Assembly (NCBI GenBank): GCA_024641305.1
Contig: JAHEDI010000020.1
Coordinates: forward strand, 1 to 62,101
Reading direction: 5' to 3'
Source: a bacterium
GTDB lineage: Bacteria; Actinomycetota; Acidimicrobiia; Spongiisociales; JAENVV01
DNA: 62,101 nt
The stretch's first letter is position 1; each line of letters begins with the position of its first letter. A program made the translations under genes and the position numbers. The notes under the pieces were generated by a model. It had not been told where the DNA came from. It was given only the letters and a program-made list of their open reading frames with translations, and ran no database searches. This document shows, in pieces, positions 10,098 to 24,672 of this stretch.

Positions 10098-11942
10098 AGC
10101 TCCGAGCCCGAGTTGGGCCCCGGTTGGTTCGTCGAACTGGGCCCCGGTTGGTTCATCGAACTGGGCTGTGTAGAGGCTGGCGTATAGGCCGCGGGAAGCC
10201 AGTAGCCGATCATGGGACCCTTCCTCGACGATCCGCCCCTCGTCAATCACGATGATCCGGTCGGCATCGCGGATCGTGCTGAGGCGATGAGCGATGACGA
10301 GGGTCGTGCGCCCGACCATCAGCGACTCTAGAGCGTCCTGGACCAGGCCCTCCGACTCGCTGTCGAGTGAGCTGGTGGCTTCATCGAGGATGAGAATGCG
10401 CGGGTCTTTCAAAAGGGCTCTGGCGATGGCGACTCGCTGTCGCTGGCCACCGGAGAGCTTGACCCCCCGCTCACCGACAATGGTTTGAAAACCATTCGGG
10501 AAGGCTGAAATGAACTCGTCGGCGTGGGCAGCCCGCGCAGCCTCGATCAGCTCTCCATCGGTCGCGTCAGGATTTCCAATGCGGAGGTTTTCGGCGATGG
10601 TCCCGCTGAACAACTGGGTTTCCTGGGGGACGGCTGCCATGTGCTGGCGGAGTTCCCGAACGCCAATTTGGCGAACGTCGACGTCGTCGATCAGGATCCG
10701 GCCGGAGGCCGGATCGTAGAAGCGAGGGACCAACTGCACGATGGTCGACTTTCCGGCACCGCTTGGTCCGACGATGGCAAGTCTTTCGCCTGGTTCGACG
10801 ACCAGACTGATGTTCCTGAGGACCGTGATGTCGCGGTCCGTATACGAAAAGCTCACGTTGTCGAAGGTGACCTTTCCCAGGACCGCAGGCATGGCGACCG
10901 GACTGTCAGGTTCGGCGATTTCGTTGGTCTCTTCCAGCAGGTCGAAGATGCGACGCGAGGCTCCGAGGGCTTCCTGTAGTTGGCTGTACAAACCCGTGAA
11001 TGTTCCGATGGCGCCGGCGACCGCCAGGGTATACAGCAAGAAACTGATCAGTTCTCCACCGGTTAGTTGACCGGCCAGAACCTGCCGACCGCCTAGCCAG
11101 ACAACCACTGCGAGGGTTCCAAAAGCTACAAACGTGACAATCGAAATGAAAACGGCCCTCAACTTGGCTCGCCGCCTGGCCACCAGGTACGACTCATTGA
11201 CCGCAGTCCCATACCGCTCCGCCTCCAACCGTTCGGCGGTAAACCACTTCACGACCCGATTGGCGGCGATGGCTTCTTCGGCGTAGCTGTTTGCTTCGGC
11301 GACCCGATCCTGAAAGTCCGTTGAAATGCGGCGCAAACGTCCACCGAAGACGGCTGCAGCGACGATGGCTATTGGCAAGAACGACAGAACGGCGAGTGAT
11401 AGGGAGATGCTTATCACGACCATCAGGACGACGCCACCGATGAGCGTGACGGCCTGGGCAAGTGTTTGGGCGACGGATTGTGAAACGGTTGTCTGCACGA
11501 CCGCCACGTCAGATGTCAGCCGCGAGGTAATCTCCCCGGTTTTTCGACCGTCGAAAAACCGGACCGGCAGGGTCATGACCTTGCTGTAAACGGCTCGTCG
11601 TAGGTCTGCAACAACGCCCTCTCCGGTCAGATTTATGTAGTACGACCGAAGGAAGTTGAATGCTGCCTGTGCTGCGAAAACACCGATAAGCAGGAGGGCA
11701 ACCCGGTCGAGTTGGCTGGTGCCCGTCGCGTTTGAGATGGCTTGATCAACGAGATCCCCGACGATTTGCGGGAAGACGAGGCCGAGACCGCTCGCCACGA
11801 CCGTCCCAAACGTCGCGACCAGAAGATATGTGCGGTAGGGGCGCACGAAACGCATGAGTCTGGCTACCTCTTGAAGGCCTTGTCGATCGATCTTGGGACG
11901 ATCGTCCGCCTCAGTCGAAGGGCGCCGTGGATTGCGAAGCAT
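10074..11942 (-). CDS. ABC exporter, fused permease and ATPase (ABCB/MsbA type)
   Basis: A half-transporter of 622 residues: six TM helices (about residues 38-325), then a nucleotide-binding domain with Walker A GPSGAGKST, signature LSGGQRQRVAIARAL, Walker B ILILDEATSSLD and H-loop IAHRLSTI. It should function as a homodimer; the substrate (lipid, peptide or drug) cannot be told. The extreme C-terminus carries an 8-residue tandem duplication (FDEPTGAQ) from a 24-bp DNA repeat. TAGCAT (complement of 11949-11954) ends 6 nt before the ATG, the leaderless layout. It stands alone, convergent with the rhodanese gene. Confidence 0.93.
   Translation of the reverse strand: MLRNPRRPSTEADDRPKIDRQGLQEVARLMRFVRPYRTYLLVATFGTVVASGLGLVFPQIVGDLVDQAISNATGTSQLDRVALLLIGVFAAQAAFNFLRSYYINLTGEGVVADLRRAVYSKVMTLPVRFFDGRKTGEITSRLTSDVAVVQTTVSQSVAQTLAQAVTLIGGVVLMVVISISLSLAVLSFLPIAIVAAAVFGGRLRRISTDFQDRVAEANSYAEEAIAANRVVKWFTAERLEAERYGTAVNESYLVARRRAKLRAVFISIVTFVAFGTLAVVVWLGGRQVLAGQLTGGELISFLLYTLAVAGAIGTFTGLYSQLQEALGASRRIFDLLEETNEIAEPDSPVAMPAVLGKVTFDNVSFSYTDRDITVLRNISLVVEPGERLAIVGPSGAGKSTIVQLVPRFYDPASGRILIDDVDVRQIGVRELRQHMAAVPQETQLFSGTIAENLRIGNPDATDGELIEAARAAHADEFISAFPNGFQTIVGERGVKLSGGQRQRVAIARALLKDPRILILDEATSSLDSESEGLVQDALESLMVGRTTLVIAHRLSTIRDADRIIVIDEGRIVEEGSHDRLLASRGLYASLYTAQFDEPTGAQFDEPTGAQLGLGASGDSDDG
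10114..10166. repeat. 24-bp tandem duplication in ABC exporter 3' end
   Basis: Two copies of a 24-bp unit beginning TGGGCCCCGGTTGG (10114-10137 and 10138-10161) and a 5-bp start of a third. The copies differ at one base and keep the reading frame. Confidence 0.9.
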
Positions 11943-14387: not shown

Positions 14388-16091
14388 CTATCGGATTCGT
14401 TTTCCGTGGTCCCAGGTGAGACCAGTCCAGTTGGATCCAGACCACGTGCTGCCAGTCCAGTTGCTGGCTGACCACGTGCTGCCCGACCAGGTTGAGCCGG
14501 TCCAGTAGGCATCAGACCAGGTGCTTCCTGACCAGGTGGACCCAGACCAGGTGGACCCAGACCAGGTGGAACCTGACCAGGTGGAGCCGGACCAGGTGCT
14601 ACCCGACCAGGTCGAGCCGTTCCACAAACCTGCGCTCCAGGTTGAGCCGGACCAGGTACTTCCCGACCAGGTCGACCCGTTGAAGGCATTGCCGAAAATG
14701 TCGATCTCGCCCTTGAGAACCACGTTGTCGTTTTCGAGATGGTCGGTACCTCTGGCAGCTTCCAGCGACCCCAACCCGGTGGCGGGTGCAAAGTCCTGCG
14801 GCGTCTGGATGGCGTAGGAGTCAGCCATAATCGCCCTGGCGCTAACCATGCCCGCACCCTTACAAGCGGATGTCGAGTAAGGCACATCGGTTGCCGATGA
14901 GCGGAGTGCCGCCTTTACCTGGTCAGGTGTGTATTCGGGATGGGCGCCGACCACCAGGGCAGCGATGCCTGAGACGACTGCTGCTGACTGGCTCGTTCCT
15001 GACCCACGGAAGTAGTTGACGGCCTCGCGAGCCTCGGGATGCTTCTGGTCGGCGTTGGAACCGGGAACCCGCACTGAGGCAATGGAGCGTCCAGGAGCGA
15101 CGAGATCGACGGTGCGGTTCGTGCCACAATTCGAGAAGGCGGCGATCCTGTCGTCCCAGGTGCTCGTGGTTCCTTTGGTGTCCACTGCGCCGACGGCGAT
15201 GACGAGTGGGCTGGTAGCTGGGGACCGTACCGGTGAACTGTTTGAATCGTTGCCGCTGGCGACGATTACGACGATGCCCTTTCGCCAGGCAGTTTCGACT
15301 GCGTAGGCGAGGGGGTCGATCGTGTAGGCCTGGGTGGAGTTGGTTCCGAAGGAGAGGTTGAGGACTCGGACATTCATGTCATTGTCGTTGCGATGCTCGA
15401 TAACCCAGTTGATAGCCGCGAGTACCTGGCTGACGTCAACCGAACCGTCGGCCGCTCCGACCTTCACGTTGAGGATGGAAGCACTCGGAGCGATGGCACC
15501 GATGATGCCGGCCATGTGAGTGCCGTGGCCGTACGCGTCGAGGTTTTGTAAGTCGGCGAGCTGAGAGTCGAAGGATAGATCAGGACCATTGACGATTCGA
15601 CTCTTGAGAGAGGTGACCGGTGCGACTCCGGAGTCGATGAGGGCCACCGTCACCCCGGATCCCGTGTACCCATACCGATTGGCTCGGTCGGCTCTGACGG
15701 TCTCGGCCAAAACCGATAGGGTGGTTGGGCGGGTCGTCGTCGACGACGACTCTTCCACCCAGTTGGAGCTTTCGGAGTCCCGGTGGTGGGCGAGTTCAAC
15801 GGTGGAGTTTTGAGTGACTGACATGACGCCAGGAGTTCTGGCGATAGTGGCGACTGCCGATGCCGGAAGGTCGGCTGTCAGGGCGTCGATGGCGTTCAAA
15901 GATCCGGTGACGGTTCCGCCCATCCGCTCGATGGTGGACGACAGTGACGCACCTTCGACGGTACGGATGATGACCTCGACCATGTTCTTGGAGGTTGTTG
16001 GGGCCGGTGCCGCCAGTAGTGAGGCGAACATTGCCACGACCAACCCGAGACCGATCGCCTTCGCTCTTGTTGCCGTAGAAGTAATGTTCAT
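14388..16091 (-). CDS. Secreted subtilisin-like protease with Trp-pentad tail (copy 1)
   Basis: A 567-residue S8 serine protease. In order: signal peptide (1-29), inhibitor I9-type propeptide (about 36-100), linker, catalytic domain with Asp153 (ALIDSGV), His189 (GHGTHMAG), oxyanion Asn281 (ASGND) and Ser367 (GTSQSAA), a short linker containing GEIDIFG, then 18 pentads of consensus STWSG (471-560) and the tail DHGKRIR. The pentads place Trp every fifth residue and may form a solenoid or a wall- or surface-binding module. ATG 16091 is preceded by AGAGGA. The neighbour at 16264-18003 is a paralog with the same architecture and last residues. Confidence 0.9.
   Translation of the reverse strand: MNITSTATRAKAIGLGLVVAMFASLLAAPAPTTSKNMVEVIIRTVEGASLSSTIERMGGTVTGSLNAIDALTADLPASAVATIARTPGVMSVTQNSTVELAHHRDSESSNWVEESSSTTTRPTTLSVLAETVRADRANRYGYTGSGVTVALIDSGVAPVTSLKSRIVNGPDLSFDSQLADLQNLDAYGHGTHMAGIIGAIAPSASILNVKVGAADGSVDVSQVLAAINWVIEHRNDNDMNVRVLNLSFGTNSTQAYTIDPLAYAVETAWRKGIVVIVASGNDSNSSPVRSPATSPLVIAVGAVDTKGTTSTWDDRIAAFSNCGTNRTVDLVAPGRSIASVRVPGSNADQKHPEAREAVNYFRGSGTSQSAAVVSGIAALVVGAHPEYTPDQVKAALRSSATDVPYSTSACKGAGMVSARAIMADSYAIQTPQDFAPATGLGSLEAARGTDHLENDNVVLKGEIDIFGNAFNGSTWSGSTWSGSTWSAGLWNGSTWSGSTWSGSTWSGSTWSGSTWSGSTWSGSTWSDAYWTGSTWSGSTWSASNWTGSTWSGSNWTGLTWDHGKRIR
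14412..14681 (-). repeat. 15-bp tandem repeats encoding 18 Trp pentads
   Basis: Each 15-bp unit encodes a variant of S-T-W-S-G. Most units read GGTTCCACCTGGTC-like on the coding strand, with variants such as SAGLW, SDAYW and SASNW showing that the array is not freshly expanded. Confidence 0.9.
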
Positions 16092-16193
16092 AACAGGTCC
16101 TCTGTTCGGAAACGTCCCATTGCTCTTGCAAGTTATATCGTCACTCTGAGTGGTTACTTGGGAACCAAACCCGTCGACACCCAACTGACTAGT
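16092..16193 (-). promoter_or_regulatory. Conserved 5' flank of subtilase copy 1
   Basis: This 102-nt flank aligns without large gaps with the flank of copy 2 (18004-18102). Shared blocks are ACTAGTCA, TTGGTTC, AGAGTG followed by CGATAT, and CAATGGGAC (complement of 16114-16122) just before the ribosome binding site. A shared promoter and leader is likely; the regulator is not known. Confidence 0.55.
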
Positions 16194-16219
16194 CACCGGT
16201 GGTCCCCTCGAGACGTGAT

Positions 16220-16243
16220 TGAGCCCCGACGGGTCGGGGCTCA
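16220..16243 (-). terminator. Hairpin after subtilase copy 2
   Basis: A 10-bp GC-rich stem (GAGCCCCGA core, loop CGGG) lies about 20 bp downstream of the stop of the second subtilase gene and upstream of copy 1. It would separate the two transcripts. No T-run. Confidence 0.6.
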
Positions 16244-16263
16244 GCTGATGGGAATTCCGGCCG

Positions 16264-18003
16264 CTAGCGGATACGTTTTCCGTGGTCCCAGGTTAGGCCG
16301 GTCCAGTTCTTGCCGGACCAGGTCGATCCGGACCAGGTGCTGCCGGACCAGGTGCTGCCCGACCAGGTGGAGCCGTTCCAGGTCGCTCCGGACCAGGTGC
16401 TGCCCGACCAGGTCGACCCGGACCAGGTGCTGCCCGACCAGGTCGACCCGGACCAGGTGCTGCCCGACCAGGTGGATCCCGACCAGGTGGATCCGTTCCA
16501 GTTGCCGCCGCTCCACGTGCTACCCGACCAGGTGCTACCTGCCCAGGCGGGGGATGCAAAGACCTGGCCGAAGATGTCGATTTCGCCTTCAAGAACCACA
16601 CCGTTGTCGGCGAGGTGGTCGGAACCACGGGCTGCCTCAAGTGAGCCCGTTCCCTTTGCCTGGGTCCACCCCTGTTGGATGGCGGTACCGGGACTGCTGG
16701 AGGTCGTAGAAAGGAAGGCGTTGATGAGTCCGGAGCCCTGGCATTTCGGAGTGATGCCGCCCAGGCTGGTGGCGCCACCCTTGATGACTTTCTTGACCTG
16801 GTCGGGGGTGTATTCGGGATGGGAGTCCAGAATCAACGCAGCTACACCCGATACGACGGCGGCGGCCTGGCTAGTGCCGGATCCCTTGAACAGGGTTTCG
16901 TCGAGGCGAGCGGACGGGTAGTTGACATCCGCATACGAACCGGGGACTCGTAGAGACGCGATCGTCTTACCGGGAGCAACCACGTCGACCGAGCGGGTGT
17001 TTGTTCCGCAGTTCGACCAGTCGGGGATGTAGTCGTCGTTGGTGCGGGTCGTTCCGCCGGTGGCGTCGGCGCCGACGGCGATGACGTATGGGTTGGTGGC
17101 CGGTGAGCGAAGTGCGGACCCGTTGGCATCGTTGCCAGCGGCAACGACTACCACGATACCTTTCTTCCAGGCAACCTGAACGGCGTATGAGAGCGGGTCG
17201 ATGATGTACGCCTGGCTGGAGTTCGTTCCAAATGACAGGTTGAGGACTCGCACATTCATGCCGTTGTCGTTGCGATGTTCGATGACCCAGTTGATGCCGG
17301 CCAACACCTGGCTGACGTCAACGGCCCCGTTGGCGGCACCGACCTTTACGTTGAGGATGCTGGCATCGGGAGCCACCCCGAGAAAATTCTTCATTTTGAG
17401 GTGTGAGGAGACCTGACCGAGGCCCGAAGCGCGGCCCGCGATAATGCCGGCCATATGCGTGCCATGGCCGTAGGCGTCGAGGTTCTGCATGCCGGCGTTC
17501 TGTGAGTCGAAAGATAAATCGGGGCCGTTGATGATCTTGCCAGGCGTGGTGAGGCCCTCAACGGGTGTCACACCAGAATCGATGAGAGCCACGGTGACGC
17601 CATTGCCGGTGGCACCGTTGTCCCATGCGCTGCCAGCCCCGGTGACGTTGGCAACCTCGGCCAAATTGGTGACGTCCTTGCCACCATCCCAGCCGCCACC
17701 GGAAAGGTTGACGCTCGAATTCTGCGTCACCGACATGACGCCCGGTTGGGATTCGAGACGACCGATCGAGCTGGCTGGTACCTGAGCTGTGATCGAATCG
17801 ATGGCGGTCATGGTGCCGGTAACGGTCCCGCCCATCTGCTCGATGGTCGAAGCGATGGAGGCGCCCTCGACGGTTCGGACGATGACATCGACCATGTCCG
17901 TGGAGGGTGCTGATGCTGGTGCGGCCAACAGCGACCCGAACATGGCAACGACGAGCGCGAGCCCGATGGCTCGTCCTTTCGTTGATGCTGAGGTGACGTG
18001 CAT
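16264..18003 (-). CDS. Secreted subtilisin-like protease with Trp-pentad tail (copy 2)
   Basis: A 579-residue paralog of the neighbouring protease. Signal peptide (1-31), I9-type propeptide (about 37-100) with the same DVIVRTVEGAS block, catalytic Asp142, His180, oxyanion Asn291 and Ser378 (GTSQAAA), a linker with GEIDIFG, 17 pentads of consensus STWSG (488-572) and the tail DHGKRIR, which is identical to copy 1. It has an insertion near residues 192-208 that copy 1 lacks. ATG 18003 follows AAGGAC. The two genes lie in the same direction about 170 bp apart with a hairpin between them, so they probably have separate but similar promoters. The substrate is not known. Confidence 0.9.
   Translation of the reverse strand: MHVTSASTKGRAIGLALVVAMFGSLLAAPASAPSTDMVDVIVRTVEGASIASTIEQMGGTVTGTMTAIDSITAQVPASSIGRLESQPGVMSVTQNSSVNLSGGGWDGGKDVTNLAEVANVTGAGSAWDNGATGNGVTVALIDSGVTPVEGLTTPGKIINGPDLSFDSQNAGMQNLDAYGHGTHMAGIIAGRASGLGQVSSHLKMKNFLGVAPDASILNVKVGAANGAVDVSQVLAGINWVIEHRNDNGMNVRVLNLSFGTNSSQAYIIDPLSYAVQVAWKKGIVVVVAAGNDANGSALRSPATNPYVIAVGADATGGTTRTNDDYIPDWSNCGTNTRSVDVVAPGKTIASLRVPGSYADVNYPSARLDETLFKGSGTSQAAAVVSGVAALILDSHPEYTPDQVKKVIKGGATSLGGITPKCQGSGLINAFLSTTSSSPGTAIQQGWTQAKGTGSLEAARGSDHLADNGVVLEGEIDIFGQVFASPAWAGSTWSGSTWSGGNWNGSTWSGSTWSGSTWSGSTWSGSTWSGSTWSGSTWSGATWNGSTWSGSTWSGSTWSGSTWSGKNWTGLTWDHGKRIR
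16288..16542 (-). repeat. 15-bp tandem repeats encoding 17 Trp pentads
   Basis: In-frame 15-bp units encoding STWSG, with variants SGGNW, SGATW and SGKNW. The array is more uniform than that of copy 1, suggesting more recent homogenisation. Confidence 0.9.
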
Positions 18004-23213: not shown

Positions 23214-24596
23214 ATGGAGAGTAGGGAACTATCACCGGTCTCGAACCGCCAGCGGTTTTTCACCAACCCCGGTTTCGTAGCGCTCTGGGCCTCGCTCGGT
23301 TTGGGGCTTCCCGCGGTAGCCGTTGGCGCCACTCTTGGTTCTGACCAGGCGATGGGCCTCACCTACATTCAGGTATTGCTGGTGGTTCCGATCGGGTTAC
23401 TCATCGGCGGGGCGATTATTTCGGCGGTCGCGTGGATGGCCGCCGACATGGGCGTTCCGACCGGCCTGCTGTTCCGGCCGAGCCTTGGAATAGTTGGCTC
23501 ATGGGCGGCTTCCGCTTTTCAGGCGCTTCTTTACATTGGTTGGACCGCTCTTGAGATTCAGATCGGAGCGGCGTTCCTCGAGCGAGTAGCCAGTGAGGCC
23601 GACTATCCAATTTCGACTGGTGTCGCGATAACGATTGCGACGACCCTGGTTGCCGGGTTGGTGTGGATGGGCATGTCATGGGTTTCGGGGGTTCTCATCC
23701 GACGAGTGACCTTCTGGATCGCTTTGGCAGTGGTTATCTGGATGGTGGTCGATGTCGTCTCCGGCGCCGATCTGGCAGGTTTAAGCGACCGGGTTCCTGA
23801 TCAGAGTCAGTTCTGGCTGGCAATCGACCTGGTGGTGATGTTCACCATGCTATGGGTTCCGCTGGCCGGGGATACGGCCCGATTCGCCAAGGACACCAGT
23901 GCCGCAACGTCGGGCGTTGGGTTTGGTTTTGGTGTTGGTTTCGGCGTCATGCTCCTGGTGGGGGCAATCGTAGGGCTGGCAGGAGGGATGGACGGAACGA
24001 TTATTGGTTCGATCGATTTTCTGGTCGGCAGGGCGGGGACACTGGTCTTGTTAATCGGGGTCGCATGGTTGTTGGCCGGCGAGATCGATCAACCGTTTGG
24101 GTTCGTATATGGTGCGTCGACGGCGCTGGCGACCACCACCTTACGGCGGGCCCCGCTCTGGTTGTCTCTGCTGGTAGTGGGGCTCGGTGGCGTGACGGCG
24201 TCACTGGCTAGCGCCAGTTCGTTGCTCGGCGTGGGTAGTTTTCTACTGGCGATGTTTGTCCCCCTTCTCGCCATTCTTATGGCGGACTTCTTCGTGGTGA
24301 GGCGCCGCCGTTACCTGACGGACGGTCTGTTCCAGTCAGATGGTGGACCATACGGGAAGGTGAACCTCTACGGTCTGTTGTCGTTCGTGGTGGCATTTGC
24401 GATTCAACAGTGGATCAACCCGTCCGGTCCGGTTCCATGGATTGAGATTGTGGAGCGGATTCCGGCGGCCGGAACCTGGGGAGCGGTCGGGGTCCCGGCC
24501 ATGCTCGTCAGTCTGTTGGTCGGCTTTGGGTTGTATGCAGGTTTGGGTAAGTGGAAGATCGAGGAGTGGGAATCGGTTTCCCACATCAGGCTTTGA
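23214..24596 (+). CDS. NCS1-family nucleobase permease (cytosine/purine type)
   Basis: A 460-residue transporter with about twelve TM helices, matching the nucleobase:cation symporter-1 family: GFVALWASLGLGLPAVAVG in TM1, LLFRPSLGIVGSW near TM3, and conserved helices with the MFVPLLAILMADFFVVRRR segment typical of cytosine permease CodB. The substrate is probably cytosine, purine or a related heterocycle. ATG 23214 is chosen because TAGGAT (23201-23206) ends 7 nt upstream; an ATG three codons earlier overlaps that hexamer, exactly as at the response regulator. The stop lies inside a 25-bp tandem repeat. Confidence 0.9.
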   Translation: MESRELSPVSNRQRFFTNPGFVALWASLGLGLPAVAVGATLGSDQAMGLTYIQVLLVVPIGLLIGGAIISAVAWMAADMGVPTGLLFRPSLGIVGSWAASAFQALLYIGWTALEIQIGAAFLERVASEADYPISTGVAITIATTLVAGLVWMGMSWVSGVLIRRVTFWIALAVVIWMVVDVVSGADLAGLSDRVPDQSQFWLAIDLVVMFTMLWVPLAGDTARFAKDTSAATSGVGFGFGVGFGVMLLVGAIVGLAGGMDGTIIGSIDFLVGRAGTLVLLIGVAWLLAGEIDQPFGFVYGASTALATTTLRRAPLWLSLLVVGLGGVTASLASASSLLGVGSFLLAMFVPLLAILMADFFVVRRRRYLTDGLFQSDGGPYGKVNLYGLLSFVVAFAIQQWINPSGPVPWIEIVERIPAAGTWGAVGVPAMLVSLLVGFGLYAGLGKWKIEEWESVSHIRL

Positions 24597-24672
24597 CCTG
24601 ATCTTGTAGGTCAGGCTTTGACCTGAGCTTGTGGGTCAGGCTTTGACCTGATCTTGTAGGTCAGGCTTTGAC
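24586..24672. repeat. 25-bp tandem repeat array, about 3.5 copies, hairpin-forming
   Basis: Units begin at 24586, 24611, 24636 and 24661 (the last partial). Each unit carries TCAGGCTTTGACCTG. Each unit boundary forms an inverted repeat AGGTCA-GGCTT-TGACCT (24608-24624; 24633-24649 similar). The first copy contains the stop of the permease and the last contains the stop of the convergent gene. It probably works as a bidirectional terminator that has expanded. Confidence 0.9.

Follow-up and report, generated by a model that had tools for sequence, protein, structure and literature searches.

LapG is a transglutaminase-like cysteine protease, and we know of no tryptophan (Trp) array in the Lap systems. 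LapD and LapG, a receptor for cyclic di-GMP (c-di-GMP) and a periplasmic protease (PMC3032545, PMC3032553, PMC5231407), are the closest described counterpart of the gene pairs reported here, and the nearest parallels for the repeat that accompanies these pairs are the pentapeptide-repeat proteins (PF00805) and the tryptophan repeat of NANOG. The pentapeptide-repeat consensus is [STAV][DN][LF][STR]G, with L or F at the centre and a small or hydrophobic residue two positions before it (PMC8145042). NANOG has a W at every fifth residue over 10 copies, the number of Trp setting the strength of the dimer (PMC5446312), and its tryptophan-repeat region drives prion-like gel assembly (PMC9106587). Here we describe two tandem genes for S8 subtilases, A and B, at positions 14388-18003 of a 62,101-nucleotide stretch of DNA (the window), which belongs to contig C58 of a bacterial genome (G000; 3.4 Mb, 93 contigs) whose nearest named relatives are metagenome-assembled genomes of Acidimicrobiia. 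Both proteases end in a long array of Trp pentads, and in most of the family to which they belong a protease of this kind is encoded directly upstream of a membrane sensor.

The arrays of A and B lie at the C-terminal ends of the two proteins (14406..14675 and 16282..16551; all features of the pair are on the minus strand). A sequence-only reading of this DNA had counted 18 and 17 pentads; the arrays are as it described, and the count is corrected here to 18 Trp in each, with 17 spacings of exactly 5 over 90 residues. Of these units, 10 in A and 13 in B are exactly STWSG, and the others are variants such as GLWNG, AYWTG, KNWTG and LTWDH. A and B have in common the last seven residues, DHGKRIR (14391..14411 and 16267..16287, sharing the last two residues of each array), and the linker GEIDIFG, both noticed already from the sequence, as well as an array length of 90 residues. 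Within their own genome, the W-x4 pattern was found in these two genes only.

The 15-bp units of the arrays repeat at the DNA level. Their Ser codons are a mixture of TCN and AGY, and many synonymous Gly and Thr codons are used. Nonsynonymous (dN) and synonymous (dS) divergence was calculated by the method of Nei and Gojobori. The arrays of A and B differ by a dS of 1.14 and a dN of 0.13, the arrays of A and its orthologue L056 by 1.60 and 0.09, and those of B and its orthologue L056b by 1.64 and 0.08, with every Trp codon unchanged in all three pairs. The mixed Ser codons, and the high dS combined with low dN, argue that the arrays are not chance or slippage noise. In the closer pair of B and L026, dN was 0.12 for the array and 0.10 for the remainder of the gene, an approximately equal constraint, so that the deep pairs show constraint on the array most clearly. 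Distinctive units occupy the same place in orthologous arrays, SDAYWTG recurring in the A copies and GKNWTG in most of the B copies, and the Trp count is 18 in every intact copy of the genus. With low dN, near-saturated dS and no loss of Trp, the arrays are old and under purifying selection. In the tree, the A clade and the B clade split before the species split (support 97/90 and 95/86), indicating that the identical tails are not the product of a recent duplication.

Relatives were sought in 396 genomes of the phylum Actinomycetota and in 59 relatives from the window's order, with one genome per species; many of these assemblies are fragmented, and arrays break at contig ends. An unbiased search for seven TGG codons at 15-base spacing was applied to the 396 phylum genomes, with a second pass for more loci. 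Combining the TGG-period pattern with a profile of the S8 catalytic domain only gave 25 loci with the array inside an S8 open reading frame (ORF). Every clear complete in-frame array that was found forms the C-terminal end of an S8 protease, and homologues in the order, in Geodermatophilus and in Quadrisphaera likewise keep the array at this end. Arrays on unrelated cytoplasmic proteins were looked for and no clear case was found: the other TGG-period matches seem to be low-complexity DNA translated out of frame, save for two fragments at contig edges, L119 and L126. L119 has a signal-like start followed by WSTPS repeats, with no S8 domain visible before the contig end.

The relatives were also examined for loss of the Trp spacing. 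Over 64 distinct S8 ORFs, 948 of 1022 Trp-Trp gaps are equal to 5. At gaps of 10, F, L or Y stands in the Trp register 16 times out of 26 (62%, against a background of 3.9%). The other four residues of the pentad vary by lineage, giving units such as WSGLS, WSGVS, WSSSS, WTGTR, WTGKS, WDGRI, WRGVN, WLDDE/WARAR and WSGAG, and some relatives have longer arrays, with 26 Trp in WSGQA units and 37 Trp in WDSRT units. Trp spacing is thus conserved across the phylum while the other four residues change freely. Together with the dN/dS values, this bears out the earlier proposal that the array is selected and that its spacing matters. Most arrays are preceded by a linker of about 33 residues, TGxGSLEAARGSxHLxxDGVxLxGExDIFG, which is APATGLGSLEAARGTDHLENDNVVLKGEIDIFG in A (14691..14789) and TQAKGTGSLEAARGSDHLADNGVVLEGEIDIFG in B (16567..16665); a search of the phylum sample with its profile, A2, gave matches with E below 1e-4 in about 29 genomes. 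Literature searches for the repeat string and for subtilase/GGDEF operons, whose coverage left out most subscription papers, returned nothing on this family.

Shared neighbours of the array proteases were sought by an all-against-all comparison of flanking ORFs. This gave one shared neighbour, a large ORF immediately downstream of the protease; the others were merely genus-level synteny or low-complexity frames. The product has the build of a membrane sensor, consisting of an N-terminal domain of about 240 residues with multiple transmembrane (TM) segments, followed either by GAF plus GGDEF-EAL or by HisKA/HATPase. One type of N-domain is joined to GGDEF-EAL in some sensors and to PAS/HisKA in others; most of their GGDEF, EAL and H-box motifs are intact. 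The N-domain matches nothing in Pfam, and a profile search of the PDB found no relative of it. Where a sortase had been considered as partner, the gene shared by these loci is instead this multi-TM GGDEF-EAL or histidine-kinase sensor.

The adjacency set comprised 54 distinct array proteases, of which 36 have the sensor, 13 lack it despite enough flank, and 5 are too near a contig end. The sensor TM domain therefore lies 26-390 bp past the protease stop, on the same strand, in 36/49 testable loci. A strict count gives 34/47, excluding L185, which was found via the sensor search, and the first copy of L155, which shares the sensor of its tandem mate. The common partner gene that the sequence-only reading proposed to look for is thus present in the relatives and missing at the window pair itself. 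Five of the 13 sensor-less proteases are in the window genus, five are elsewhere in the order, and one (L133) is an upstream tandem copy whose second copy has the sensor; the sensor-less window clade nests inside the sensor-linked proteases in the tree. None of 14 S8 loci without arrays had a sensor alongside.

Genome scans with a profile of the sensor TM domain (A4) found the sensor in 108/396 phylum genomes and in 26/59 relatives. Using genome lists compiled by hand, array and sensor co-occurred strongly: the sensor was present in 29/29 phylum genomes with an array versus 79/367 without (Fisher p 2e-18), and in the order the corresponding fractions were 15/17 and 11/42 (p 1.5e-5). Two loci have other arrangements. 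At L231:3523-7263 (minus strand) the order is reversed, with the sensor upstream of the Trp-array protease and still adjacent, and L150:5545-13791 (plus strand) carries two protease-sensor pairs in succession, whose arrays differ (WHGWS versus WDGWG units).

Since the protease lies directly upstream of the sensor in most of the family, the two most likely act together across the membrane, possibly on a common extracellular event. The protease would work outside, and the sensor would read its activity, product or occupancy, or the reverse, with c-di-GMP turnover or a histidine kinase as the predicted output. The array may be a rod-like or self-associating element of regular build, to which each pentad contributes one large hydrophobic residue, and would keep the protease on the cell surface or within assemblies. 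We therefore consider it fairly probable that A and B are exported S8 subtilases representing the protease half of a protease-sensor module, that the array serves in anchoring or assembly, and that A and B belong to a branch without an adjacent sensor. On this branch, which no longer has the adjacent sensor gene, A and B would be an old tandem duplication, the genome keeping one sensor of the same family elsewhere. The data show the sequences, their conservation, their distribution and the adjacency of the genes; physical contact between protease and sensor, the direction of signalling and anchoring by the array are inferred from these.

We give about even chances to the broader proposal that this is an undescribed actinobacterial transmembrane module, made of a Trp-tailed exported subtilase and an unnamed multi-TM sensor domain, in which the array would be a repeat of a new kind that places the enzyme at the cell surface or at the sensor, and of which the window holds a duplicated, separated branch. 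If so, many actinobacterial c-di-GMP proteins and histidine kinases, a large group so far without a name, would have a predictable extracellular partner, namely a protease with a very simple repeat, and the question of what the sensors respond to would become directly testable. It would also add a period-5 Trp repeat that holds its spacing while nearly the whole unit drifts, a clean case for studying how repeats fold and assemble.

Several observations weigh against a protease-sensor module that includes A and B. The A and B loci have no sensor neighbour, so that their link to the sensor is by family only, and the sensor-less proteases of the order mostly group together in a branch whose support is moderate (93/74). 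Although 28/58 sensor loci have an array just upstream, 30/58 have none in the available flank, which suggests that the sensor also works alone or with other proteins and that its family extends beyond the pair. Export of A, B and their relatives was judged from N-termini read by eye, signal peptides and TM helices being called by simple sequence reading; those of A and B have a basic and then a hydrophobic stretch ending ASLLAAPA and GSLLAAPASA, and are signal-peptide-like. Finally, AlphaFold2 (AF2) gave very low mean predicted local distance difference test (pLDDT) scores, 37 for the full-length protein and 40 for the C-terminal 133 residues, so that any fold of the array is tentative.

The one sensor of the window genome lies on contig C50 (L219:6838-9426, plus strand; 863 residues, GAF + GGDEF + EAL) and has no protease alongside, and it is doubtful that A and B act through it. 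The gene upstream of this sensor encodes a 224-residue protein without a Pfam match, itself preceded by a gene for a metallo-beta-lactamase-fold protein.

The array itself can be explained in other ways. It may be a beta-solenoid domain like that of the pentapeptide-repeat proteins, with Trp as the central residue, forming a rigid spacer or docking surface to which any link with the sensor is secondary. Both are long unbroken arrays of period 5 in which each unit carries one large hydrophobic residue, and the replacement of Trp by in-register F, L or Y would suit such a fold. In the low-confidence AF2 model of the C-terminal 133 residues a three-residue strand is centred on each Trp, and the nearest structures returned by Foldseek with this array model (SV2 LD4, AlbG, MfpA, Rfr, Qnr) mostly have the right-handed quadrilateral beta-helix of pentapeptide-repeat proteins. 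However, array pLDDT is about 45-50, the best Foldseek E is a non-significant 0.07, and PF00805 does not match A or B at E up to 1. STWSG agrees with the consensus at 3/5 positions, with Trp in place of L/F at the centre, and the position two before Trp is variable, many relatives having R, K, Q or D there instead of a small or hydrophobic residue (PMC8145042); fusion to an export-type protease is a further difference. The solenoid likeness raised by the sequence-only reading is thus weakly favoured by the low-confidence model and falls short of a significant match, and we regard the solenoid explanation as a tentative possibility that is somewhat less than probable. Alternatively, the array could be a disordered Trp sticker that self-associates like the NANOG repeat and clusters or gels the protease at the cell surface. 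NANOG also has Trp at every fifth residue with polar residues between, its dimer strength and gel assembly depend on this region (PMC5446312, PMC9106587), and several of the arrays are of similar low-complexity S/T/G/N make-up. Against this, a spacing that stays strict in strongly diverged arrays and a copy number that does not change within the genus point to a regular structure, and R and D are abundant in several of the arrays. NANOG is eukaryotic and nuclear and has 10 copies; the likeness is one in kind, common descent is not indicated or expected, and a sticker role seems rather unlikely.

Binding of glycan or cell wall, with exposed Trp as stacking platforms, would be natural for Trp-rich repeats with polar residues between them at the end of an exported enzyme. 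A and B matched none of the known carbohydrate-binding or cell-wall-repeat families, and in-register Leu would be an odd replacement in a sugar-stacking platform, making this role unlikely. The array could also be a neutral low-complexity tail, prone to slippage and functionless in itself, since it is built of 15-bp units that repeat at the DNA level and since units have turned over, their sequence differing between lineages. Near-saturated dS with all 18 Trp kept, the constant count in the genus, and a period maintained through F, L or Y replacement render neutrality most improbable.

The protease-sensor pair resembles the Lap systems in outline, in that relatives of A and B (not the window locus) genetically pair a GGDEF-EAL membrane protein with an exported protease. 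It is not a Lap member, because the protease family differs (S8, PF00082, rather than a LapG-type cysteine protease) and because the unnamed N-domain of the sensor, which lacks a Pfam match, is combined with GGDEF-EAL or with a histidine kinase as output. The array-protease family is, moreover, found in Actinobacteria, whereas Lap belongs to the diderm periplasm. The best NCBIfam match of the A and B protease domains is TIGR03921, the type VII secretion mycosins. This identity was rejected, as the scores of 140 and 155 bits are below the curated cut-off of 278.75; the sole shared neighbour found at the array loci is the sensor.

The kept DHGKRIR tail had been suggested to bind something or to be recognised by it. 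This idea did not survive comparison: DHGKR is limited to the window genus, where DHGKRSFQ and DHGKRHAQ also occur, and outside the genus the proteins stop one residue past the last Trp (WS, WE, WN, WG) or have a different short tail. A sorting or recognition tag was therefore rejected. As already noticed, the tail lacks a LAxTG-type signal; neither A nor B contains L[AP]xTG (LPxTG/LAxTG), and sortase anchoring of the two proteins was rejected on this ground.

The sequence-only reading was right in placing two neighbouring S8 proteases at these coordinates. Subtilase A (14388..16091) has 567 residues plus stop from a probable ATG start (MNITST...), in an ORF open up to 16196, and subtilase B (16264..18003) has 579 residues plus stop, also from a probable ATG start (MHVTSA...), in an ORF open up to 18114. 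The S8 catalytic domains (14883..15662 in A, in which the D, H, S and oxyanion N motifs were found, and 16759..17607 in B) match PF00082 with 136.7 and 141.2 bits, compared with a gathering score of 21.8 (E-values 1e-39 and 5e-41), and the motifs ALIDSGV, GHGTHMAG, SGTSQ and GND are intact in both. A plasmid search gave merely ordinary S8 matches of <60% identity. The flanking genes encode a pirin, a DUF6982 protein, an LppM-domain protein, a DNA methylase, an APH-family kinase and a LysM/M23 protein, and the neighbourhood is syntenic within the genus. At L222:7677-8267 (plus strand), a same-genus A copy is broken by frameshifts, with the B copy intact. Elsewhere in the window there are two short tandem repeats, one of 25 bp in 3.5 copies at 24586-24672 (TCAGGCTTTGACCTGATCTTGTAGG) and one of 24 bp at 10114-10166, near the end of an ABC transporter ORF whose same-genus homologue terminates in PTGAQFDEPTGAQFG.

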